Assembly: GCA_017454765.1 (NCBI GenBank)
Contig: JAFTCJ010000026.1
Span: forward strand, 1 to 64,000
DNA length: 64,000 nt
Direction: 5' to 3'
From: Erysipelotrichaceae bacterium
GTDB taxonomy: Bacteria > Bacillota_I > Bacilli_A > Erysipelotrichales > Erysipelotrichaceae
This document shows, one piece after another, positions 108-11,042 of the stretch (the stretch's first letter is position 1; every line of letters starts with the position of its first letter). The notes below the pieces were generated by a model. The model was not told the origin of the DNA. It searched no databases and worked only from the letters and a program-made list of their open reading frames with translations. Both the position numbers and the translations under genes were made by a program.

Positions 108-1340
108 ATGTACGGCAAGGTACGTATGTATCATACAAGCAGCAATATGGGAATCAGGTTTGCGAAGTCGATCAAGATCGGCAATTATCTCAGGATCAAT
201 TTCAACAGAAACGGCATCAGTGCGACCATCGGCAAGAGAGGTGCATCCGTCAATATCGGCACCAAGGGAACTTATCTCAATCTTTCTCCCTCAGCCGTCG
301 GTGTGACCGGGACCGGTCTTTCCTACCGGCAGAAGATCGCCGGAGGTATTCTGGGCAACAAGAAGAAAAAGAACAAAGCGGCTTCCAAAGCTTCCAAGAA
401 GAAGACATATATTTCTGCCGATGAGGTCAATCAGAAGAAGGCTTCCTCTCTGAAGAAGAAGGAAGAGGAGATCAAGGAGACGCTCCCGATCCAGAGTGAA
501 GTCGAAGAAGAAACGCTCGATGTCGTCGAGGAATACGAAAACAATCAGGAAGCGATCGTCAATCTGCATAAGTATACTGATCCTGTCATGAGCAAGAAGC
601 AGTACCGCAAATATGTGGATGAACTGGATTCCCAGGCGATGAAGGAGCTCTGTGAATATGCGATCGAAGGCGATGAGGATACGATCGAGAACATGGTCTC
701 TTCTTTCATGAACAAGCTGGAACTGGCTTACGATGTCAGAGTCAATTATGAACTGGAAGACAATATCCTTTATGTCGACCTGGATCTGCCGGAGATCGAG
801 GATCTTGACAGACAGTATCCCGCTTACAACAACGGCAGGATCGTATATAAGAGAAAGACCAATGCGGATATGAAGGAAGAATATGCAAGGCTTGTATTGA
901 GCCTGGGTGTTTTTCTGACCGCTAATTATTTCAATGTCTCATCCTACATCGATGAAGTCGTCATGTCGGCTTTCACGACTGTCAGGGACAAGACCGGTGA
1001 TCTGGTTGACCAGTATCTGTATTCCGTCAAATACATGAGGGAAGCATTTGAAAACTGTGACTTAAGCGAAGTTGACGATCTCTATCAGTTCCTGCTCCAG
1101 TTTGAAAACAGGATCAACATGTCTTCCGCCTATACCTTCAAGGCGATAAAGCCTTACGAGATGGAATCGGTCATCAAGACCAACGAACTCGTGGATGATG
1201 CCCTGAAGGCGCTCAAGGAACTCGGTTACAAGCAGGCCGAACTCAAGAGCATTGCGGAAAAACTGAACGAATACCGCTATGAAACAGCGGGTGAATATCT
1301 CAAGGAAGGTCTGCGCCTTCTGAAGGAAGAGAAAAAATAA
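108..1340 (+). CDS. DUF4236 domain protein
   Basis: The N-terminal part, about residues 14-75, matches the DUF4236 pattern: a basic 'MGIRFAKSIKIG' opening followed by short Gly/Asn-rich beta segments ending near 'GTGLSYR'. A Lys-rich linker (about 85-125) leads to some 270 residues of acidic, mostly helical sequence that I do not recognise. There is no signal peptide or membrane segment. The start at 108 has an AAAGGAAAG ribosome site eight bases upstream; the DUF4236 similarity begins at the in-frame ATG at 147, which has no such site. The family has no settled function. The gene lies nine bases before a lipoprotein gene, so the two may be co-transcribed. Confidence 0.75.
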   Translation: MYGKVRMYHTSSNMGIRFAKSIKIGNYLRINFNRNGISATIGKRGASVNIGTKGTYLNLSPSAVGVTGTGLSYRQKIAGGILGNKKKKNKAASKASKKKTYISADEVNQKKASSLKKKEEEIKETLPIQSEVEEETLDVVEEYENNQEAIVNLHKYTDPVMSKKQYRKYVDELDSQAMKELCEYAIEGDEDTIENMVSSFMNKLELAYDVRVNYELEDNILYVDLDLPEIEDLDRQYPAYNNGRIVYKRKTNADMKEEYARLVLSLGVFLTANYFNVSSYIDEVVMSAFTTVRDKTGDLVDQYLYSVKYMREAFENCDLSEVDDLYQFLLQFENRINMSSAYTFKAIKPYEMESVIKTNELVDDALKALKELGYKQAELKSIAEKLNEYRYETAGEYLKEGLRLLKEEKK

Positions 1341-1349
1341 AAGGAGAAT

Positions 1350-2327
1350 ATGCCTCTTTCCTTTGTGCCTGAAAGAAACAGCCAGATGAAGCTCATGAAG
1401 ACAATGATGAGCTTCTTCTTGTTGCTGTGTCTGTTTGCCTGCGGCGGTGAAAGCCAGGAAGCAATACCGGTGAAGGAAGAGGAAACGCCTGAAGCGCCCA
1501 AGGAAAAATACAAGGTACCGGAATTTGCGGAATCCGTGTTTGACAAAGATGCCGCTGAAGGAAGAAACGGCGCCTATATCGATCTCTCGCATACATCTGA
1601 AGGCTATGTCGCGGTATCGGCGACATCGGATCAGCGTCTGAAGTTTCAGGTGCTGACGGAAGAGACTTACAACTACGATCTTTCCATGGACGGAGATGTC
1701 GGTATCTTCCCGCTGCAGTCGGGAGACGGTGACTATATCTTCCGGGTCCTGAAGAATGTTTCGGAAAACAAGTATGCGATCCTGTTTGAGACATCGGCGA
1801 CAGTGACGCTGGCCGATGAATTCCAGCCCTATATCCGCAGCAACAATTATGCTGCCTATTCAAAGGATTCCGAGTGTGTGAAGCTGGCTTCCTCGTTCTC
1901 GGATCAGTCATCAAGTGCGGTCGATGTCGTCAAGATGGTCTATGACCATGTCTGCGCCAACATCACGTATGACAGGGACAAGGCGGCGGATGCCAAGGCA
2001 GGTTCCCTGTCGGGATATCTGCCCGATCCGGATGAGACATTAAGCAGCGGCAAGGGCATCTGTTTCGATTATGCATCACTCACGGCAGCGATGCTGCGCT
2101 CGCAGGGCATACCCGTCAAGGTGATATTCGGTTATGTCCGTCAAAGCAGCGGTGATGTCTATCATGCATGGAATATGTTTTATACAAAAGAAGAGGGCTG
2201 GGTGACGGTCGAATTCAAGACCAATGAAGAGGACTGGAACCGTATCGACCTGACATTCTCTGCCAACGGTGCCGATCCGACGTTTATCGGCGACGGCAGC
2301 AATTATGCACAGGTCTATCAGTATTAG
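1350..2327 (+). CDS. Transglutaminase-like lipoprotein
   Basis: The protein opens with a lipoprotein signal: a hydrophobic stretch ending in the lipobox LFAC, followed by Gly-Gly-Glu. It is therefore expected on the outer face of the membrane. The C-terminal half carries a transglutaminase-like core: Cys238 in 'GKGICFDYASL' and His272 in 'YHAWNMF'. At the position where the family usually has Asp (VPVD), this protein has Glu288 (VTVE), so the triad may be Cys-His-Glu. Such domains act as cysteine proteases, transglutaminases or inactive binding modules. AAGGAG precedes the ATG at 1350; an alternative ATG at 1386 would give a more typical signal length. It sits ten bases before the pilus-like operon and may work with it. 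Confidence 0.75.
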   Translation: MPLSFVPERNSQMKLMKTMMSFFLLLCLFACGGESQEAIPVKEEETPEAPKEKYKVPEFAESVFDKDAAEGRNGAYIDLSHTSEGYVAVSATSDQRLKFQVLTEETYNYDLSMDGDVGIFPLQSGDGDYIFRVLKNVSENKYAILFETSATVTLADEFQPYIRSNNYAAYSKDSECVKLASSFSDQSSSAVDVVKMVYDHVCANITYDRDKAADAKAGSLSGYLPDPDETLSSGKGICFDYASLTAAMLRSQGIPVKVIFGYVRQSSGDVYHAWNMFYTKEEGWVTVEFKTNEEDWNRIDLTFSANGADPTFIGDGSNYAQVYQY

Positions 2328-2336
2328 GAGGTTATT

Positions 2337-3383
2337 ATGGCAAACAAAGGAAAACTGAGTCTTCTGGGGATCTCTGCTTTCTGTGAAAGCATGGCCGGCA
2401 TGCTGTCGGCAGGGATCGATCTCTCGGAAGCAGTATCATTGCTGAAGCAGAAGGGGAAAAACAGCGGAACGCTCAATGAAGGCATTGAAGTCATGCGAAG
2501 CAGCATCGAGGAGGGTTCTACGTTCTCTGAAGCAATGAAGAAAAGCGGACTTTTCCCTGACTATGTCCTGGATATGGCTGAAGCCGGTGAAACAACCGGA
2601 AAGAGCGAGGATGTTTTCAGAAGGCTTTCGGATTATTATGCCAGACAGCATAATCTGTCAGAAAAGATCAGGGCGACGATCGTCTATCCTCTGGCCATGA
2701 TCATCCTGATCATCATCGTGCTTTATCTGATGCTGAAGATGGTCCTGCCTGCTTTCTCCAATGTATATGAGACGCTGACGGGCAGTCTGAGCGAAAGCAG
2801 TTTTGCCTATATCGATTATGCCTTCCTGTTCTGCCGGATCGCTCTGATCGTTATGATCGTTCTGGTCGGGGCAGTCGCTGTTCTCTACTTCCTGTATAAG
2901 GGTTCAATGAAGAAACAGATACAGAAGCTTTTAAGCGCCGTACCCGGTTTCAGATCGATCATGGAAAATCTGGCTTTATATCGTTTTACCTCCGCATATG
3001 AAGTCTATCTTTCCAGCGGCAGCATGCAGGATGAGGCTCTGGAAAAGGCGGCGAAGATGGCGGACTATGATCCTGTCTTAAGCAAGATCGAAGCCTGCGG
3101 CAGGCAGATGGAAGAGGGCCACGGCTTTGCGGTAAGCGCCAATGAAGCGGAACTCTATGAACCGATCTATGCCAGGATGCTGATACCGGCAGAGAAATCA
3201 GGCAATACCGAGAGCACTCTCAACAGACTGGTCGATCTGCTTTCGGAAAGCGTTGTGAGCAATGCCGACCGTCTGCTGAATACATCGGAATCCGTGCTTT
3301 CGGGAACACTGATGGTCACGGTTGCGATCGCTTTACTTTGTGTCATGCTGCCGCTGATCGGCATCATGAATTCCATCGGATAG
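2337..3383 (+). CDS. Type II secretion/type IV pilus inner-membrane protein (GspF/PilC family)
   Basis: This is a polytopic membrane platform protein of the GspF/PilC/ComGB family. The two halves are the repeated T2SSF helical domains (about 10-130 and 205-340), with membrane segments near 115-135, 165-190 and 320-345. The motif 'AEAGETTGKSEDVFRRL' and the later 'IPAEKSGNTESTLNRL' are the two family signatures in their expected places. At 348 residues it is slightly shorter than PilC (about 400). AGGAGG lies just before the ATG. It would seat the pilus-like fibre and couple it to the ATPase encoded at 4896. Family assignment is firm; whether the machine makes a pilus, a pseudopilus or something else is unknown. 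Confidence 0.88.
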   Translation: MANKGKLSLLGISAFCESMAGMLSAGIDLSEAVSLLKQKGKNSGTLNEGIEVMRSSIEEGSTFSEAMKKSGLFPDYVLDMAEAGETTGKSEDVFRRLSDYYARQHNLSEKIRATIVYPLAMIILIIIVLYLMLKMVLPAFSNVYETLTGSLSESSFAYIDYAFLFCRIALIVMIVLVGAVAVLYFLYKGSMKKQIQKLLSAVPGFRSIMENLALYRFTSAYEVYLSSGSMQDEALEKAAKMADYDPVLSKIEACGRQMEEGHGFAVSANEAELYEPIYARMLIPAEKSGNTESTLNRLVDLLSESVVSNADRLLNTSESVLSGTLMVTVAIALLCVMLPLIGIMNSIG

Positions 3384-3387
3384 GATT

Positions 3388-3702
3388 ATGTATCACGACA
3401 GTAAAAGAAAAACACTGCTGATCTTCCTTATCGTGCTGCTTGGCTTTACAGCATTGTTTTCTGCGTATTCTTCTTTCAGAAAGAGGGCAGGAAGCGATCT
3501 TTCGGATGAAAGTGCAGCGGCGATCAAGGAGGCCATTGAACATGCAGCCTTGCAGTGTTATGTCGTGGAAGGAGCTTATCCGGTCAACCTGGATTATCTG
3601 AAAGAGAATTACGGTCTCAATATCAATGAGAAGAATTACTATGTCGTATATAACGCCTATGCGGAAAACCAGGCTCCGGATATCCGTATTGTAAAGAAAT
3701 AG
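3388..3702 (+). CDS. Small single-TM protein, pilin-like
   Basis: A 104-residue protein with one N-terminal membrane segment (about 9-28) and a short outside domain. The stretch 'AIEHAALQCYVVEGAYPVNLDYL' region resembles a pseudopilin, where a helix is followed by a Tyr-Pro-x-x-Leu turn. It lacks a recognisable prepilin peptidase site: there is no Gly followed by a hydrophobic core with Glu at +5. Position between GspF/PilC and PilT genes is the main argument for a minor pilin-like role. Exact family not recognised. Confidence 0.6.
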   Translation: MYHDSKRKTLLIFLIVLLGFTALFSAYSSFRKRAGSDLSDESAAAIKEAIEHAALQCYVVEGAYPVNLDYLKENYGLNINEKNYYVVYNAYAENQAPDIRIVKK

Positions 3703-3706
3703 ACTT

Positions 3707-4159
3707 ATGAACAGAAAAGAAAGTTCCGGAAAAATCAGTCTCATGATCATGACAGCATTCTTCATGCTGAGTTTTCTGCTGCTTGTGATCTTCGGGACGC
3801 AGATCTACAGAAATATCGCGCTTTCTCAGGAAGAGAGTTCTCTTTCAAGGACGCTTTCTTCCTATCTGCATACGGCTTCCAAGATGAACGAGGCAAGGAT
3901 CGGGACAAAGACCATGGAGGGAAGAACAGTCCTGGTCATCGAAGATTCGGATACCGGTTTCGGCAACCGCATCTATTTGGAAGACGGTTATCTGGTCGAG
4001 GATTTCTCTTTGCTGGATGATGAGCTTCATACGGCATCGGCGACACGGATCGGAAAGACGGATCTGTTTGAAACAAAATGGATCCGGGATGATCTGCTTG
4101 AGGTCACGACCAGTGACGGTATTGTCTATATCACGCTCATGAAAGGAGACGGACGATGA
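3707..4159 (+). CDS. DUF4860-like small membrane protein of the pilus-like operon
   Basis: A 150-residue protein with one N-terminal membrane helix (about 11-30) and an outside domain rich in beta strands. The layout, with 'GTQIYRN' just after the membrane helix and a Ser-rich helix 'SLSRTLSSYLHTASK', resembles DUF4860 proteins that accompany GspF/PilT genes in Bacillota. Its stop overlaps the next start by four bases (ATGA), indicating co-translation. No classical prepilin cleavage motif is visible. A minor pseudopilin or assembly factor role is inferred only from context. Confidence 0.6.
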   Translation: MNRKESSGKISLMIMTAFFMLSFLLLVIFGTQIYRNIALSQEESSLSRTLSSYLHTASKMNEARIGTKTMEGRTVLVIEDSDTGFGNRIYLEDGYLVEDFSLLDDELHTASATRIGKTDLFETKWIRDDLLEVTTSDGIVYITLMKGDGR

Positions 4160-4566
4160 AAAAGAGATCCAATCTGTCTCTGGGTATTGAGATCATTGCC
4201 ATACTTGCTGTCTTCATCATGTCGATCACCATCCTGAGCAAGGCTTTCGTGACGGCCAGGGGAAAGAGCGTTTCTGCGGCAAGGCTGTCCGATGCGGTGA
4301 CACTGGCATCCAACGGTGCCGATGTCTTCCTTTCCTGTGAAGATGATAAAGAGATTTATGAAGTGCTCAATGAAAACGGAAATGCACAGCTGAAAGAAGA
4401 TGTCAGTGTCTTTTACGATGATGATCTGAAAGCCGATCCAAACGGTGCATTCCGTATGGATATCATCAGCAAAGAGAACGGTGATTTCATTGATGCCGAT
4501 ATCATCGTTTATTACAATGAAGAAGAGATCTACAGGATCAATACCGGAAAAGGAGCAGGACGATGA
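4156..4566 (+). CDS. Small pilin-like membrane protein
   Basis: A 136-residue protein with an N-terminal membrane helix (about 8-30) preceded by a basic leader, then a mixed alpha/beta outside domain ending in strands such as 'ADIIVYYNEEEIYRI'. The leader 'SLGIEIIAILAVF' looks vaguely like a class III prepilin, but Glu is at +2 rather than +5 from the Gly, so cleavage by a prepilin peptidase is doubtful. It overlaps both neighbours by four bases. Function is inferred from the operon only. Confidence 0.58.
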   Translation: MKKRSNLSLGIEIIAILAVFIMSITILSKAFVTARGKSVSAARLSDAVTLASNGADVFLSCEDDKEIYEVLNENGNAQLKEDVSVFYDDDLKADPNGAFRMDIISKENGDFIDADIIVYYNEEEIYRINTGKGAGR

Positions 4567-4892
4567 ATACGGGCAGACTGAGACTTGGTTTATTATCGAT
4601 ACTTCTGAGCGTGATCGTCATCTGCATGAGCGTGCTTTCACTGCTGTCTTTTGCGACTTCCATGGCGGATATGCGTCTGGCCCAGCGTTATGCCAGGACC
4701 GTGGAGATCCGCTATCAGCTGGAAAAGCAGGGCAGACAGCTGATTCAGCAGCAGGGTGCCGTGAATACGGAGATCGAACTGGAAGGCTACAGGCTGATCA
4801 TCGAAAGCGATGAGAACGGTGAGATCAAGACCTGGTGCATAGAAAAGATCTGGCAGCAGGATGAAAGTATAGATGATTTGTGGGAGGGGTGA
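4563..4892 (+). CDS. Small pilin-like membrane protein
   Basis: A 109-residue protein: basic leader, membrane helix (about 8-31), then an amphipathic helix and beta-rich tail. The order 'helix - RYARTVEIRYQLEKQ - beta strands' is what a short pseudopilin would look like, but the canonical Glu5 is missing. ATGA overlap with the previous gene and a three-base gap to the PilT-type ATPase gene place it inside the operon. Exact family not recognised. Confidence 0.58.
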   Translation: MNTGRLRLGLLSILLSVIVICMSVLSLLSFATSMADMRLAQRYARTVEIRYQLEKQGRQLIQQQGAVNTEIELEGYRLIIESDENGEIKTWCIEKIWQQDESIDDLWEG

Positions 4893-4895
4893 AAC

Positions 4896-5948
4896 ATGAG
4901 TATTGAGGAAATTCTGAAAAATGCGGTTGCAGCAGATGCGTCGGACATCTTCCTGATCGCCGGCCTGCCGCTGACTTATAAATGCAGCGGTTCGCAGAAC
5001 CGTATCGGCGACAAGATGCTTCTGCCGGAAGACATCAAGGCGCTGATCGATGAGATCTACGAGATCTCAAAGAGACAGAGGGACAATCTGGACCGCGGAA
5101 CTGATGATGACTTTTCATTTTCGATCTCTCATTTAGGCAGGTTCCGTGTCAATGTCTTCAGACAAAGGGGTTCCCTGGCTGCGGTCATCAGAGTGATCCG
5201 ATTCGGTATCCCCGATCCGGTCAAGATGAACATCCCGGAGAGTGTGCTCTCCCTTGCGGATAATAAAAAGGGTCTGGTGCTGGTGACCGGTTCCGCCGGT
5301 TCCGGCAAGTCCACGACCCTGGCCTGCATGATCGACAGGATCAACAGAAACAGGTCCTGCCACATCATCACGATGGAAGATCCGATCGAATTCATCCACC
5401 GTCACGACAAATCGATCGTGACCCAGAGAGAAGTGTTCATCGATACGCCGAGCTATCTGGAATCACTTCGTTCTGCGCTCCGTGAAAGTCCTGATGTCAT
5501 CCTTCTTGGCGAGATGAGAGACTATGATACGATCTCGGCAGCGATTACGGCTGCGGAGACAGGAACACTGCTGATATCGACACTGCATACTTCCTCCGCC
5601 GTCAATACGATCAACCGTATCGTCGACGTCTTCCCGGCTTCCCAGCAGCATCAGATCAAGATCCAGTTGTCGCAGATCTTAAAGGGCATCGTTGCCCAGC
5701 AGCTGGTCACGGGAGCGGACGGGGAACTGATCCCGGCATTTGAAGTGCTCAAGATCAATTCCGCCGTTCAGAACATGATCAGGGAGGACAAGCTGCATCA
5801 GTTACCTTCCGTGATGCAGTCATCGGCTGCCGAAGGCATGTTTACGATGGATTCCTATCTGCTCGATCTGTATAAGCAGGGCAAGATCACAAAGGATGAA
5901 CTCCTGCTGTCCTGTGTCAATTACGACACTGTCAGCAAGAAGCTGTAA
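4896..5948 (+). CDS. PilT/GspE-family secretion ATPase
   Basis: A hexameric-type AAA-like motor of the PilT branch. Visible are Walker A 'GSAGSGKST' near residue 132, the Asp box 'MEDPIEF', Walker B with 'DVILLGEMRD' near 200-209 and the His box 'STLHTSSA' near 228. The N-terminal PAS-like domain is present and 350 residues is the usual PilT length; the longer N-terminal domain of PilB/GspE is absent. In known systems PilT powers pilus retraction next to a separate extension ATPase. Here it is the only ATPase in the operon, so it may drive both movements or something else. AGGGG precedes the ATG. Confidence 0.9.
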   Translation: MSIEEILKNAVAADASDIFLIAGLPLTYKCSGSQNRIGDKMLLPEDIKALIDEIYEISKRQRDNLDRGTDDDFSFSISHLGRFRVNVFRQRGSLAAVIRVIRFGIPDPVKMNIPESVLSLADNKKGLVLVTGSAGSGKSTTLACMIDRINRNRSCHIITMEDPIEFIHRHDKSIVTQREVFIDTPSYLESLRSALRESPDVILLGEMRDYDTISAAITAAETGTLLISTLHTSSAVNTINRIVDVFPASQQHQIKIQLSQILKGIVAQQLVTGADGELIPAFEVLKINSAVQNMIREDKLHQLPSVMQSSAAEGMFTMDSYLLDLYKQGKITKDELLLSCVNYDTVSKKL

Positions 5949-5980: not shown

Positions 5981-7291
5981 TTACTGAGCCTTGACCTCGG
6001 CCGATCCGAGGTCTTTTCCTTCGTTGAACCTCATTGCATTTTCCATCGTCTGTACGGCGATCGCCTGCATGGCTTCTCTGGTGAAGAAGGCCTGATGGGA
6101 TGTCAATACCAGCTGCGGGAACATCTGCAGTCTGGCGGTGATAGAGTGAGGCATCGCTTCATCGGATCTGTCGGTATAGACGTTTTCATCTTCGCCTTCA
6201 TAGACATCCAGGGCAACGGCCTGGAACTTGCCGGCTTTCAGGGCGGCGATCAGCGCTTCGACATCGATCAGCGGTCCTCTGGCGGTGTTCACCAGCATGA
6301 CCCTGTCTTTCATCTTGGCGATGGCTGCTTCGTCGATCAGATGATAGGTGCCGCCTTCGCCCATGATCAGCGGTGCGTGTAAGGAGATCAGATCGGCCTT
6401 GGACAGCAGTTCGTCCTTTGTGACATAAGTCAGCAGGCCCTCTTCCTCCAGCCGTTTATTGGGATAGGCATCCCAGCCGATGGCCGTCATGCCGTAGCCT
6501 TTGGCGATTCTCGCGAAGCATTCGCCGATCTTTCCGGTGCCCATGACACCGCAGACTTTGTTGTGCAGATCGACTCCCAGCAGTCCCGAGAGAGCGAAGT
6601 TGTTTTCCCTGACTTTGCGGTCAGCCCTGTGGAGCCTTCTGTTTGCTTCCTGCAGGATCGCCATCGCATGTTCCGCCACTGCATAGGGCGAGTAAGCCGG
6701 AACTCTGGCGACTTTGATGCCGTATTCCTTGCAGGCATTCAGATCCACGTTGTTGAAGCCCGCACAGCGAAGCAGGATCAGCCTGATGCCTTCTTCATGC
6801 AGGACATCGATGACTTCTTTGGGTGCTTCGTCATTGACAAAGATACAGACGGCATCATGACCGGAAGCCAGTCTTGCGGTTTCCAGGGTGAGCCTTGATT
6901 CAAGATAATCGATCTCGACATTGAAGGTTCCGGGACCTTTTTCTTTTTCCAGTTCTGAAAAGAAGATGCGGTCATAGTCTTTGGTGCCGAAGAAGGCGAT
7001 CTTTAAAACACTGGTCTCATTTTCTTCGATGCAGTCACCGTCGGTGCATATGGCTTCCTTTACCTTGGGAGCATCCTCTTCTTCATGGATCCCTTCAACG
7101 GTCACGTCCAGCACATCGCCTTTCTGAGCTTTCAGTGCCAGGATCTGCAGGACATCGTTGCCGTTGGCAGTCCTGCCGTTGCAGCTGATGGTGACAGAAC
7201 TTTTCAGTCCGACACACAGCTGGGCGATCTTTGATGCCGGTCTGGCATGGATGCCGATCGGGCTTTCTACGACACAGCGGAATTGTTTCAT
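5981..7291 (-). CDS. HPr domain fused to D-2-hydroxyacid dehydrogenase (D-lactate dehydrogenase-like)
   Basis: Residues 1-90 form an HPr-like domain. His15 sits in 'GIHARPAS', the exact site phosphorylated by enzyme I of the PTS. The regulatory Ser46 of Gram-positive HPr is replaced by Asp46 ('GRTANGNDVLQ'). From about 96 to 430 follows a D-isomer 2-hydroxyacid dehydrogenase: nucleotide fold 'GTGKIG' at 251-256 with Asp274 selecting NAD, Arg338 in 'NTARGP', Glu365 in 'LDVYE' and His399 in 'TSHQAFF'. The pattern is closest to fermentative D-lactate dehydrogenases reducing pyruvate. Fusion suggests that PTS phosphorylation state senses or tunes the fermentative step; that is inference. GAGGAAA precedes the start. 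The gene is transcribed after the HAD gene upstream. Confidence 0.85.
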   Translation of the reverse strand: MKQFRCVVESPIGIHARPASKIAQLCVGLKSSVTISCNGRTANGNDVLQILALKAQKGDVLDVTVEGIHEEEDAPKVKEAICTDGDCIEENETSVLKIAFFGTKDYDRIFFSELEKEKGPGTFNVEIDYLESRLTLETARLASGHDAVCIFVNDEAPKEVIDVLHEEGIRLILLRCAGFNNVDLNACKEYGIKVARVPAYSPYAVAEHAMAILQEANRRLHRADRKVRENNFALSGLLGVDLHNKVCGVMGTGKIGECFARIAKGYGMTAIGWDAYPNKRLEEEGLLTYVTKDELLSKADLISLHAPLIMGEGGTYHLIDEAAIAKMKDRVMLVNTARGPLIDVEALIAALKAGKFQAVALDVYEGEDENVYTDRSDEAMPHSITARLQMFPQLVLTSHQAFFTREAMQAIAVQTMENAMRFNEGKDLGSAEVKAQ

Positions 7292-7338: not shown

Positions 7339-7353
7339 AGAGGCATGGCCTCT
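7339..7353 (-). terminator. Short hairpin at the end of the HAD gene
   Basis: AGAGGC/GCCTCT pair over a three-base loop; on the minus strand the stem is followed by CTTTCTTTT. The stop codon (TAG) of the upstream gene lies at the edge of the stem. A weak terminator. Confidence 0.4.
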
Positions 7354-8011
7354 AATCATAATACTGATATTCTTCGCAATCCCTGGGATCTTCGATCTCC
7401 TGCAGGAATTTGTTCAGATACTGCGGTTTTTTCAAGATCAGGGCTTTTCCGCCCAGCATGATCATCGGTTTGGCATCCACATCGAAACGGTCGCCGATGG
7501 ACAGTGTCTCTTCCGGTCTGACATCATATTCCTTCATCAGTTTTTCCATTAGCACGGCTTTGGTGGGCGACTTGTTTTCATTCTCATTGCACATGATCTC
7601 GGTGAAGATATCTTCGGATACACCGATCTGATTCAGGACATGGGAGACGTTGATGCGGGTATTGTTTGTCAGAAGCACCAGAGGTGCGATATCCGCGAGT
7701 TTTTTCAGCATCTCTTCAGTCATGGCTTTTTCCTTCACGATCAGCGGATAGCCGAAATGTACGCTGCGGTAGGAATCCCAGTGATAGATATCGATGAAAC
7801 GGGAGAGGAAAAACTGGGTCGTCGATCTGGCATCGGCAGCGACATAGGGATAGATGTGATTGTCGTTCAAAGTCTTTATCGCATCCTCTTTTTCGAATTC
7901 GTAGAACTTCATCATATAGGCGACGGCCGTATCAAAACCGTCGGCGATCAGATCCGCCATATCGTAGAGGGTACCGTCCATGTCGATAATGATCAATCGT
8001 ATGTTTTTCAT
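7352..8011 (-). CDS. HAD-superfamily hydrolase
   Basis: A 219-residue haloacid dehalogenase-type phosphatase. Motif I is 'IIDMDGTLYDM' near the N-terminus (nucleophile Asp plus acid Asp), motif II is 'VLLTNNT', the motif III Lys is in 'NKSPTK', and motif IV is 'SIGDRFDVDAKP'. A helical cap lies between motifs I and II. The reading frame stays open upstream, but the HAD fold begins at this ATG, and a longer start would run into the divergent gene. Substrate is unknown; the family includes phosphoglycolate- and sugar-phosphatases. It is divergent from the glycerol-phosphate operon, 27 bases apart. Confidence 0.82.
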   Translation of the reverse strand: MKNIRLIIIDMDGTLYDMADLIADGFDTAVAYMMKFYEFEKEDAIKTLNDNHIYPYVAADARSTTQFFLSRFIDIYHWDSYRSVHFGYPLIVKEKAMTEEMLKKLADIAPLVLLTNNTRINVSHVLNQIGVSEDIFTEIMCNENENKSPTKAVLMEKLMKEYDVRPEETLSIGDRFDVDAKPMIMLGGKALILKKPQYLNKFLQEIEDPRDCEEYQYYD

Positions 8012-8025
8012 CTCTATTTCTATTT

Positions 8026-8031
8026 TATAAT
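8026..8031 (+). promoter_or_regulatory. -10 box placed for a leaderless transcript
   Basis: A perfect TATAAT ends seven bases before the ATG at 8039. Transcription would begin at or next to the start codon, and no ribosome binding site is present. No good -35 is visible. It also lies inside the 27-bp divergent gap. Confidence 0.5.
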
Positions 8032-8038
8032 AAGATTG

Positions 8039-9460
8039 ATGACAGATATAACGATAATCGGAGCAGGGATATGCGGTTCCCTTATCGCTCACAGACTGAG
8101 CAAAACTGATTTGCGGGTTTTGGTTCTGGAGAAGGAGAGTGATGTTGCGGAAGGTGCCACCGGAGCGAATTCGGCGATGGTGCATTCAGGTCATGATCCG
8201 AAACCCGGCACTTTGAAGTGCAGATACAACCTAAGAGGCAATGAACTTTATCCCGATCTGTGCAAGGAACTTCAGACAGCCTATGTACCGATCGGCGCTT
8301 TTGTCGCGGCCGGATCGCCTGAAGAAGAGACGGTTCTGGACAAGCTGATCGCCCAGTGCGAGGAACGCAGAGTTCCCTATGAAGTGCTGAGCGGCGAACA
8401 GGCCAGAGAACTTGAACCCAATCTTGCCGACCGCATCAGCAAGGTCCTTTCGCTTCCGTCGACCGGCATCGTCACACCTTTTGAAGTGACCATCGCCGCC
8501 ATGGAAGAGGCCATGCTCAACGGTGTGGAACTGAAACTCAACTATGAAGTGAAAAAGATCGAACGCAGGGATGATCACTTCCTCATCAATGATGAGATCG
8601 AAACGAAGCTGATCGTCAACTGTGCCGGTGCGCATTGCGATGATATCACGGAGATGCTCAGGGAAAGTCCTTATCACGTAGAAACAAGGAAGGGCGAGTA
8701 TTTCGTCCTGGATCATCTCAACGGCTCTTTCGTGAAACATGTGATCTATCCGGTACCCAGTGCCAAGGGCAAGGGCGTGCTGGCAGTTCCGACGGTCCAC
8801 GGCAACGTGATGCTGGGACCGAATTCCGATTTTGCCGCCAACAGGGATGATGATGCCACGGGCGACGGTCTTGACTTTGTCCGTTCTGAGATCAGCAGTA
8901 CGATGAAGAACATCCCGTTCAACAGGATGATCCATACGTTTGCGGGCTTGAGGCCGCATATCGATCTGAATGATTTCTATATCCGTGAGGATGAACAGAT
9001 CCCCGATTTCATCCATGTTGCCGGTATCGAATCTCCGGGACTCACGGGTGCTCCGGCGATCGCCGAAGATGTCTGTGACAATATCATCCTGCCGAAATTC
9101 GAATATCACAGGAAAGAGGATTACATACGCAGAAAAGCGTTTATCAATATGGAAAAGATGAGCGAAGAGCAGATCAATGAGCTCATCCGAAAGGATCCTT
9201 CTTTCGGAAGGATCGTCTGCCGCTGTGAGAAGATCTCAGAGGGACAGATCAGAGATGTGATCCGCAGGAAGTGCGGCGCAAGAACAATCAAGGGCGTCAA
9301 GATGAGATGCCGTCCGGGCATGGGCAGATGCCAGGGAGGCTTCTGTGAACCGGAAGTGCTTAAGATCCTGGCAGAAGAGCTGCATGAGGATGTCAGGGAC
9401 ATTGAACTGGACAGAAAAGGTTCCGCTGTTTTAATCAGCAATGCCAAGGAGGAACTGTGA
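8039..9460 (+). CDS. glpA: FAD-dependent glycerol-3-phosphate dehydrogenase (GlpA-like) with BFD iron-sulfur domain
   Basis: A 473-residue flavoprotein of the DAO family. The FAD-binding motif 'IIGAGICGSLIAHRL' is at the N-terminus. A C-terminal BFD-like [2Fe-2S] domain shows Cys394, Cys396, Cys431 and Cys436 ('VCRCEK', 'GRCQGGFC'). This is the architecture of anaerobic GlpA-type enzymes oxidising glycerol 3-phosphate to dihydroxyacetone phosphate. Its partners follow directly: a GlpB-like flavoprotein and a DUF1667 protein. The open frame extends far upstream, over the antisense HAD gene, but the FAD motif fixes the start here. The gene appears leaderless. Stop and next start share TGATG. 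Substrate is inferred from family and neighbours; L-2-hydroxyglutarate oxidase-like relatives exist. Confidence 0.82.
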   Translation: MTDITIIGAGICGSLIAHRLSKTDLRVLVLEKESDVAEGATGANSAMVHSGHDPKPGTLKCRYNLRGNELYPDLCKELQTAYVPIGAFVAAGSPEEETVLDKLIAQCEERRVPYEVLSGEQARELEPNLADRISKVLSLPSTGIVTPFEVTIAAMEEAMLNGVELKLNYEVKKIERRDDHFLINDEIETKLIVNCAGAHCDDITEMLRESPYHVETRKGEYFVLDHLNGSFVKHVIYPVPSAKGKGVLAVPTVHGNVMLGPNSDFAANRDDDATGDGLDFVRSEISSTMKNIPFNRMIHTFAGLRPHIDLNDFYIREDEQIPDFIHVAGIESPGLTGAPAIAEDVCDNIILPKFEYHRKEDYIRRKAFINMEKMSEEQINELIRKDPSFGRIVCRCEKISEGQIRDVIRRKCGARTIKGVKMRCRPGMGRCQGGFCEPEVLKILAEELHEDVRDIELDRKGSAVLISNAKEEL

Positions 9461-10695
9461 TGGAAAGACATCAGCTGGTCATTATAGGCGGCGGATCTGC
9501 CGGCATCGCAGCCGCCCTGGGTGCGTATGAAAACGGATTGAGAGATATCCTGGTCGTGGAACGGGAAAGCGAATACGGCGGCATCCTGCAGCAATGTATC
9601 CACAACGGTTTCGGACTGCATACGTTCAATGAAGAGCTTTCCGGTCCGGCCTATGCGGAGAAATATTTTGATCTGATCAGGGACAACGACTGCATTCATT
9701 TCGTCTATGATACGGCAGTCACAAAGATCAAAGATAAGACACTGACCCTTCAAAGCAAAGAGGGTTTAAGGCATGTGGAAGCCGATGCGATCATCCTGTC
9801 GACCGGATGCCGGGAGAGACCTGCCGGTGCCATCGGCATGAAAGGCAACCGCTGTGAGGGCGTCTATACGGCCGGTACGGCACAGAAATATCTCAACAAG
9901 GAAGGCTATCTTGTGGGCAGGAGAGTCTTCATCCTCGGTTCCGGAGACATCGGTCTGATCATGGCCAGAAGGATGACGTTAGAAGGTGCCAAGGTCATCG
10001 GTGTCGCCGAGCTGCAGCCTTATTCCAACGGTCTGGCCAGAAACATCAAACAGTGTCTGGAGGACTTCGATATCCCGCTTTACTTGTCCCATACCGTTGA
10101 AGCGGTGCACGGCTCATCCAGACTGGAATCGATCACCCTGATCGAAGTGGATGAGAAACTGAAAAAGATCCCGGGCAGCGAACAGGAGATCCCCTGTGAC
10201 TGTCTGCTTCTGTCTGTCGGTCTCATTCCGGAAAATACCCTGATCGAGGATCTGGGCGTGAAACTGGATCCGCGTACCAGAGGGGCTGTCGTGGATGATC
10301 GATATATGAGTTCCGCTGAAGGCATCTTTGCCTGCGGCAATGCCTTACATGTCCACGACCTGGTCGACTATGTTTCGATCGAGGGAAAAAAAGCCGGAAT
10401 GGCGGCTGCCGATTATGTCAACGGCATAAGACCTGAAGGAGAAGCGATACGGAATGTCGTTTCCGGCGGCGTCTCCTACATGGTCCCGCAGTCTTTCCAC
10501 AAAGGAAGGGATCTGGAATTCATGTTCCGGGTCAACAGGGTATTCAAGGACTGCTTCATCCATGTCTACGGCAAGGGCCTGGATAAGAAGATCAGAAAGA
10601 CGGGCATCGTACCCAGCGAGATGCAGAAGGTCCTGTTAAAGAAAGATGAGATCGAATCACTTGAAGGTGAACTGAACTGGGAGGTAGTCGAATGA
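9460..10695 (+). CDS. FAD/NAD(P)-binding oxidoreductase, GlpB-like partner
   Basis: A 411-residue two-dinucleotide-fold flavoprotein: FAD motif 'IIGGGSAGIAAAL' at the N-terminus, 'STGCRERP' in the middle, a second Rossmann motif 'ILGSGDIGLIMARR' and a C-terminal FAD motif 'GIFACGNALHVHDLVD'. In Bacillota such proteins lie between GlpA-like and DUF1667 genes, and the three are thought to form an anaerobic glycerol-3-phosphate dehydrogenase passing electrons to NAD or another acceptor. AAGGAGG lies seven bases before the ATG at 9460; a GTG three bases earlier is possible but less likely. The gene overlaps its neighbours on both sides. Confidence 0.8.
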   Translation: MERHQLVIIGGGSAGIAAALGAYENGLRDILVVERESEYGGILQQCIHNGFGLHTFNEELSGPAYAEKYFDLIRDNDCIHFVYDTAVTKIKDKTLTLQSKEGLRHVEADAIILSTGCRERPAGAIGMKGNRCEGVYTAGTAQKYLNKEGYLVGRRVFILGSGDIGLIMARRMTLEGAKVIGVAELQPYSNGLARNIKQCLEDFDIPLYLSHTVEAVHGSSRLESITLIEVDEKLKKIPGSEQEIPCDCLLLSVGLIPENTLIEDLGVKLDPRTRGAVVDDRYMSSAEGIFACGNALHVHDLVDYVSIEGKKAGMAAADYVNGIRPEGEAIRNVVSGGVSYMVPQSFHKGRDLEFMFRVNRVFKDCFIHVYGKGLDKKIRKTGIVPSEMQKVLLKKDEIESLEGELNWEVVE

Positions 10696-11042
10696 AACTG
10701 ATATGTATCAACTGCCCGCGGGGCTGTCATCTGGAAGTTGAGAATATCAACGGTGAGGTCAGTGTCAGCGGCAACTTCTGCCCCAGAGGCAAGACGTATG
10801 CCGAAAGCGAGATGCTCAATCCTTTGAGAACACTGACGACGACGCTTCCGATCGTTTCAAAGAAATACCGCCGTCTGCCGGTCATGACATCTGAGCCGAT
10901 CCCCAAAGGCAAGGTCATGGATGCCATGAAGGCGCTGAAGGATGTTTCTGTTGAAGCGCCTGTGAAAATGGGCGATGTCATCGTCAAAGGCATCATCGGA
11001 CTGGATGCCGACATCATCGCCTCCAAAACCATAGAAGAATGA
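10692..11042 (+). CDS. DUF1667 domain protein
   Basis: A 116-residue protein with Cys5, Cys8, Cys12 ('CINCPRGC') and Cys30 ('NFCPRGK'), a pattern like the iron-sulfur N-terminus of molybdopterin oxidoreductases and typical of DUF1667. It probably holds an iron-sulfur cluster and serves as the small electron-transfer subunit with the two flavoproteins upstream, a gene trio seen widely in anaerobic Bacillota. Start overlaps the preceding stop by four bases; its own stop overlaps the lipoprotein start. Confidence 0.82.
   Translation: MKLICINCPRGCHLEVENINGEVSVSGNFCPRGKTYAESEMLNPLRTLTTTLPIVSKKYRRLPVMTSEPIPKGKVMDAMKALKDVSVEAPVKMGDVIVKGIIGLDADIIASKTIEE

Follow-up and report, generated by a model that had tools for sequence, protein, structure and literature searches.

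An HPr domain fused to a D-lactate dehydrogenase-like enzyme in gut and rumen fermenters: a candidate switch read by enzyme I

Architecture of the fusion protein

The window analysed here, a 64,000-nucleotide stretch of DNA from an Erysipelotrichaceae bacterium (contig JAFTCJ010000026.1), encodes on its minus strand an HPr domain with an intact His15 joined to a complete D-lactate dehydrogenase (LDH)-like enzyme. We propose that the HPr domain may act in cis on this fermentative D-LDH as a His15 switch that enzyme I can read and that has been freed from HPrK, a functional reading inferred from sequence to which we give a probability of about one half. The architecture itself had been put forward in an initial annotation of the DNA and is borne out by the open reading frame, by Pfam and by its recurrence across genomes. 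Of 61 genomes (that of the window and 60 relatives), 32 carry the complete fusion and two more have copies cut by contig ends; the architecture is also present in named isolates, and is thus neither a chance arrangement nor an assembly error. In all, 111 distinct copies of the fusion were collected. The features of the gene and its surroundings are as follows.

5981..7291, minus strand: HPr-D-lactate dehydrogenase fusion gene (open reading frame with ATG start, 436 amino acids plus stop; Pfam domains)
7043..7291, minus strand: HPr domain, residues 1-83 (PF00381, E 8.8e-17; model pLDDT 94.5; Z 15.2 to 1opd)
7007..7042, minus strand: variable linker, residues 84-95 (column entropy; pLDDT drop at residues 81-90)
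5984..7006, minus strand: D-lactate dehydrogenase part, residues 96-436 (Pfam, sequence and fold matches, catalytic residues)
7247..7249, minus strand: codon of His15, the HPr phosphoacceptor (sequence, GIHARPAS)
7154..7156, minus strand: codon of Asp46, at the Ser46 position of Gram-positive HPr (alignment, DSSP of the model, residue counts)
7339..7353, minus strand: terminator-like stem that separates the fusion from the HAD-hydrolase gene lying upstream (weak: 5 such sites against 2.4 expected)

All Pfam domains of the window's protein exceed their gathering cut-offs, with PTS-HPr at residues 3-80 (E 8.8e-17), 2-Hacid_dh_C at residues 211-401 (E 1.4e-44) and 2-Hacid_dh at residues 123-428 (E 3.1e-30), and no further PTS domain was found in it by Pfam. 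The HPr part scores 61.4 bits against PF00381 (cut-off 23) and 62.5 bits against TIGR01003 (cut-off 47.9). Foldseek searches initiated with the whole model returned only dehydrogenases among the best 50 matches and the HPr part was therefore searched alone; the model of this domain has a mean pLDDT of 94.5 and its residues 1..85 superpose on residues 1..85 of 1opd with a Z of 15.2 and an rmsd of 1.3. The two parts are joined by a variable linker, the mean entropy of columns 81-95 over 94 fusions being 2.25 as against 1.36 for the HPr part and 0.62 for the LDH part, and the full-length model (pTM 0.58) does not fix the arrangement of the two domains with confidence.

The HPr active centre and residue 46

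The fused HPr could be aligned without gaps to Bacillus HPr from the complex with CcpA (1rzr_T) and to the S46D mutant of E. coli HPr (1opd). In the HPr part, G13, H15, A16, R17, A19, C26, V47, L53, G67 and E70 are invariant in all 94 tabulated fusions, the table comprising the distinct sequences of the first two collections, to which later additions brought the total to 111. His15 and Arg17 are surface active-site residues of HPr for which we know of no role in the fold. The surface formed by residues 47, 48 and 51, which we take to be part of the contact of HPr with enzyme I, stays hydrophobic (V47 in 94 of 94; L48 in 93, with Ile in one; L51 in 86, with Met in eight). Comparison with free HPrs, drawn from the window's order only, shows that Gly54 is kept in the canonical free proteins and variable in the fused ones, and that residue 26 (window 7214-7216) is Cys in 110 of the 111 fusions and Ala in one, whereas the 30 canonical free HPrs have Ala. 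Within the window's genus, the fused HPr is far less conserved than the free HPr.

Asp46 had been predicted to occupy the Ser46 position, and both the gap-free alignment to 1rzr_T and 1opd and the superposition on 1opd place it there. Across the 111 fusions, residue 46 is Asn in 90, Asp in 18, Ser in two and Glu in one (one copy that begins at residue 8 and has Asn46, L106, was left out of these counts by the full-length filter). Ser46 is thus replaced in 109 of 111 fusions, whereas all 30 canonical free HPrs from this order retain it; the remaining one of the 31 free HPrs fetched, L002, has no Ser at this position. Both members with Ser46 were added by the later surveys of the Mitsuokella and Bilifractor families, and not by the first scan. 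That HPrK cannot switch the fusion, as the initial annotation had it, holds to the extent that no serine stands at position 46. Judging by genome codes, 15 of the 18 Asp46 rows are from the window's own family, and on a tree of 109 fused and 4 unfused rows residue 46 changed at least six times and the Asp/Glu state at least three times. In the model of the HPr domain (DSSP), residue 46 directly precedes the helix 47-51, and Asn, Asp and Ser are the usual helix N-cap residues. Exchange among these three residues is therefore explained by a helix-capping position and phosphoserine mimicry need not be invoked. The S46D form of Bacillus HPr is termed 'impaired' in the title of 1sph, and by this analogy Asp46 would, if anything, weaken transfer from enzyme I in the window's own protein.

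The dehydrogenase part

Both PF00389 and PF02826 score above their cut-offs, which places the remainder of the protein in the D-2-hydroxyacid dehydrogenase superfamily, and the nearest solved proteins by sequence and fold are the D-lactate dehydrogenases of Fusobacterium, E. coli, Pseudomonas and Salmonella. The dehydrogenase part groups with the LdhA-type D-LDHs and not with other 2-hydroxyacid dehydrogenases, and D-lactate dehydrogenase is its predicted activity; among the 25 NCBIfam matches listed, no dehydrogenase model reaches its cut-off (the best is vanH_gen, with 194 bits against 540). We take R338, E367 and H399 to be the catalytic set and D274 to be the NAD residue. R338 and E367 are each present in 109 of the 111 fusions and H399 in 108, the remaining copies (L176, L179 and L182) being cut by contig ends. 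Where stand-alone LDHs have their start Met, all 111 fusions have another residue (Leu in 108, Ile in two, Phe in one). An independent start of the LDH part was rejected on this ground, with the reservation that 34 CTG and two TTG codons may act as weak internal starts.

A glycine-rich loop insertion at residues 308-316 of the LDH part (window 6344-6370) is seen in 98 of the 111 fusions and in none of 45 unfused relatives. It was considered as a fusion-specific feature and rejected, as it is absent from 10 of 111 fusions, and no conserved contact patch was found on the LDH of the fusions, this loop included. Pairwise comparison of ten members from the window's genus gave a median dN/dS of 0.13 in the HPr part (dS finite in 38 of 45 pairs; a rough value, as dS is near saturation) and of 0.06 in the LDH part (dS finite in 41 of 45 pairs; likewise rough, as dS is high). 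Both domains are intact and under purifying selection.

Distribution and origin

In an even sample of the phylum, the fusion was found in 11 of 392 genomes and a stand-alone LDH (E <= 1e-60) in 38 more, while surveys of two further families revealed it in 9 of 151 genomes of the Mitsuokella family (one copy being cut at residue 368) and in 13 of 397 genomes of the Bilifractor family. A scan of contigs confirmed 203 relatives, the best 80 of which all carry the HPr part (L106 from residue 8 onwards); as only these 80 were kept, the most divergent members are under-sampled. By their record titles, isolates of Sharpea, Eggerthia, Floccifex, Selenomonas, Mitsuokella and Bilifractor hold the fusion, and its presence in named isolates shows that it did not arise from faulty binning.

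When 49 fused LDH domains were placed in a tree with 45 unfused ones, they formed one clade (SH-aLRT 100) with a single change of label; the fused rows are those left after ten duplicates were collapsed and others not chosen, the unfused hits are selected ones, and the tree was built by a quick method, for which long branches make the support values less reliable. Fused sequences are 61-89% identical to the window's protein and unfused ones at most 59%. Given this one clade set against 45 stand-alone relatives, the fusion looks like the product of a single event. The Mitsuokella-Selenomonas rows nest in a group shared with Lachnospiraceae rows, and one Mitsuokella-family row (L175) sits elsewhere, beside a row of the Bilifractor family (L200). 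As the Mitsuokella-family rows are split in this way among Lachnospiraceae and Bilifractor-family neighbours, transfer of the fusion between families is likely. Loss of the HPr domain in relatives, which the initial annotation had named as evidence against its reading, was looked for and did not occur within the fused clade, where copies without the HPr part are those cut by contig ends. Some rows translated with table 4 can carry spurious C-terminal tails.

Mobile elements were also surveyed. No fused copy was found among the best ten matches each of the 521 plasmid and 36 phage records matched, and these best matches start at residue 88 or later with the exception of one, on a Caballeronia plasmid, which starts at residue 29; this candidate was rejected, as its early part crosses a stop codon and holds no HPr. 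One record labelled as a bacteriophage (MT835881.1, L226) carries a stand-alone D-LDH that resembles those of gut bacteria and is probably bacterial DNA.

PTS partners and genomic context

The window's genome (1.71 Mb in 27 contigs, 72% complete) encodes enzyme I on contig C15, HPrK on C26 and free HPrs on C15 and C19, so that the suggestion that enzyme I may read the fused HPr is a possible one here. Enzyme I is above cut-off in 58 and HPrK in 60 of the 61 related genomes. Of the 38 genomes that were reached by way of fused loci, 35 have enzyme I above cut-off and the other three yielded only fragments or distant relatives of it; these three and one more fused genome with no match above cut-off (G034) are all, as far as their records indicate, fragmented or incomplete assemblies. 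HPrK was found in 33 of 40 fused genomes, the seven with no match including all five Mitsuokella-family genomes examined, and enzyme I is present in four of four HPrK-less genomes of that family examined for it. At least one further HPr match occurs in 30 of 32 fused genomes. The second free HPr of the window's genome, on C19 (L002, 1486-1749), is the one that lacks Ser46; it has Cys26 and adjoins genes that by eye resemble IIA, IIB and IIC of a galactitol-type PTS, and the window's fused HPr shares more residues with it (31 identical) than with canonical HPr (21). L-LDH is present in 20 of the 61 genomes and was not found in the incomplete genome of the window. Replacement of L-LDH by the fusion was rejected, as L-LDH occurs in 8 of 32 fused and 12 of 29 other genomes, with no clear trade-off.

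Genes next to the fusion are not conserved, the commonest neighbour cluster occurring in 11 of 70 loci analysed (11 of the 81 loci, comprising the window and L034-L113, were dropped as the fusion frame was lost in the open reading frame filter). An operon partner was rejected since neighbours differ between loci, and the link to the PTS is thus the HPr domain itself. In the window, plus-strand genes at 108-5948 face the fusion and include T2SSE/PilT-like and pilus-like small proteins, a run that lies beside the fusion in only about five or six of the 70 loci. The genes at 7640-11042 are divergent from the HAD and fusion genes: the first resembles type 2 glycerol-3-phosphate oxidase and includes a BFD-like domain, and behind it lie genes for an oxidoreductase and for a small cysteine-rich protein. 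The stem at 7339..7353 weakly suggests a separate transcript for the fusion, the region having 5 terminator-like sites where 2.4 are expected from shuffles. A Rex operator upstream was considered and rejected (mean of the best sites over 111 loci 9.20 against 9.05 for shuffled sequences, of a maximum of 14), and no Rfam element reached its gathering cut-off between 5500 and 8500 of the window.

Proposed role of the fused HPr and its alternatives

We envisage that enzyme I and the built-in HPr would exchange phosphate at His15, by which the fused HPr would report the PEP-to-pyruvate balance and the flux of PTS sugars (we draw here on E. coli work, Hogema 1998, as cited in PMC13426487). During influx of PTS sugars, PEP would fall and pyruvate would rise, leaving the HPr domain unphosphorylated and the dehydrogenase at its most active or with a higher affinity for pyruvate; when sugar is scarce, phosphorylation of His15 would lower its activity. 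The loss of Ser46 would remove the input from HPrK and CcpA. The least certain step is the direction, with the unphosphorylated form as the active one, which is suggested by analogy with Vibrio, where free HPr stimulates pyruvate kinase: PMC5987630 describes stimulation of V. vulnificus PykA by dephospho-HPr, which lowers its Km for PEP. The fuller picture, in which the fused HPr is a dedicated PEP/pyruvate sensor that regulates a non-PTS enzyme in cis, is deaf to HPrK, arose once and has since passed between distant families of the gut and rumen, is one that we offer tentatively, as possible and somewhat short of an even chance.

The main rival to the His15 switch, which sequence does not separate from it, is that HPr docks the LDH on enzyme I or on PTS permeases as a scaffold, so that pyruvate would be reduced on the spot and phosphorylation would govern docking only. 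Enzyme I makes pyruvate with each charging of HPr (textbook knowledge), the hydrophobic 47/48/51 surface is kept, and a variable linker with an uncertain domain orientation is what a tether would be expected to have; yet pyruvate generally diffuses fast and LDH is usually abundant, and none of the observations points to docking in particular. We regard this reading as unlikely. An alternative in which HPr is a structural relic that stabilises or oligomerises the enzyme, with His15 kept only as part of the fold, would accommodate the faster change of the HPr part (entropy 1.36 against 0.62; dN/dS 0.13 against 0.06) and the existence of stand-alone relatives without HPr (the 45 unfused rows). 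It is rendered improbable by the invariance in 94 of 94 fusions of His15 and Arg17, which are not known to have a role in the fold, and by the failure to find domain loss inside the fused clade.

The intact His15, the loss of Ser46 in 109 of 111 fusions and the presence of HPrK in 60 of 61 related genomes would also fit an extra phosphocarrier that serves IIA domains or other targets, which HPrK cannot shut off and for which the LDH is a passenger, but 30 of 32 fused genomes have at least one more HPr match and a carrier needs no fusion to an LDH, nor always to the same LDH, which makes this quite improbable. We consider it very improbable that Asp46 is a natural phosphomimic by which the domain, as a decoy or co-repressor, engages CcpA. 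Asp46 does match Ser46 in position, as it does the Asp of the S46D mutant 1opd, but most fusions (90 of 111) have an uncharged Asn, seven of 40 fused genomes gave no HPrK match, and position 46, where Asn, Asp and Ser would all serve as helix N-caps, precedes the helix 47-51. The residue counts and the repeated changes along the tree, of which the Asp/Glu state needs at least three, led us to reject a conserved, family-wide phosphomimic, and the decoy idea of the initial annotation finds no support in a family with mainly Asn at this position.

If the His15 switch is real, the D-LDH would gain a read-out of sugar flux comparable to that which fructose bisphosphate gives L-LDHs; many L-lactate dehydrogenases obtain such a direct read-out from this metabolite. 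The carriers of the fusion are gut and rumen fermenters, in which, through the built-in HPr, the pace of D-lactate production could be governed directly by sugar uptake. According to PMC5069950, the D-lactate dehydrogenase gene of Sharpea azabuensis is 12-fold more expressed in low-methane sheep. The S. azabuensis genome holds the fusion (L052) and its other listed matches (G048) are weak 2-hydroxyacid dehydrogenases, for which reason this gene is probably the fusion. A switch on D-lactate set by the PTS would, if true, bear on rumen lactate and methane.

Comparison with known systems

No paper on an HPr-LDH fusion was found in the open-licence literature searched, and it is in this sense only that we call the fusion undescribed; the main text of a classification of 2-hydroxyacid dehydrogenases (PMC6303947) does not mention PTS, phosphocarrier or phosphotransferase. 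The fused domain shares with free HPr (PtsH; PF00381, TIGR01003) the fold, the His15-Arg17 active centre, the length and the register over residues 1-85, and differs from it in the attached enzyme, the replacement of Ser46 (109 of 111), the variability of Gly54 and the presence of Cys26 (110 of 111). It stands apart from the HPrK-controlled HPr of Gram-positive bacteria, which is defined by Ser46, with Asp46 in the window's protein and Ser in two of 111 fusions. The LdhA-type D-LDHs of E. coli, Pseudomonas and Fusobacterium (5z1z, 5z20, 5z21) have the same fold and catalytic set as the dehydrogenase part at about 42-45% identity (Foldseek), but the solved enzymes lack the HPr part, whereas in the fusion an HPr stands in front and the LDH has another residue in place of its start Met (Leu in 108 of 111).

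HPr domains within larger proteins are found in FPr and DhaM, where the partners are PTS phosphotransfer domains; in the fusion the partner is an NAD-dependent dehydrogenase with no other PTS domain. Crh (catabolite repression HPr) of Bacillus shares the HPr-like fold but has Ser46 and lacks His15, and the fusion, with His15 kept and Ser46 lost, is its reverse. HPr likewise acts in trans on enzymes of central metabolism, namely PykA of V. vulnificus, which like the fusion is located at the pyruvate node, and glycogen phosphorylase of E. coli (complex 9s8b). Control by HPr is thus known in trans, whereas in the fusion HPr is a covalent part of the enzyme, a conserved arrangement that makes such control testable in one purified protein.
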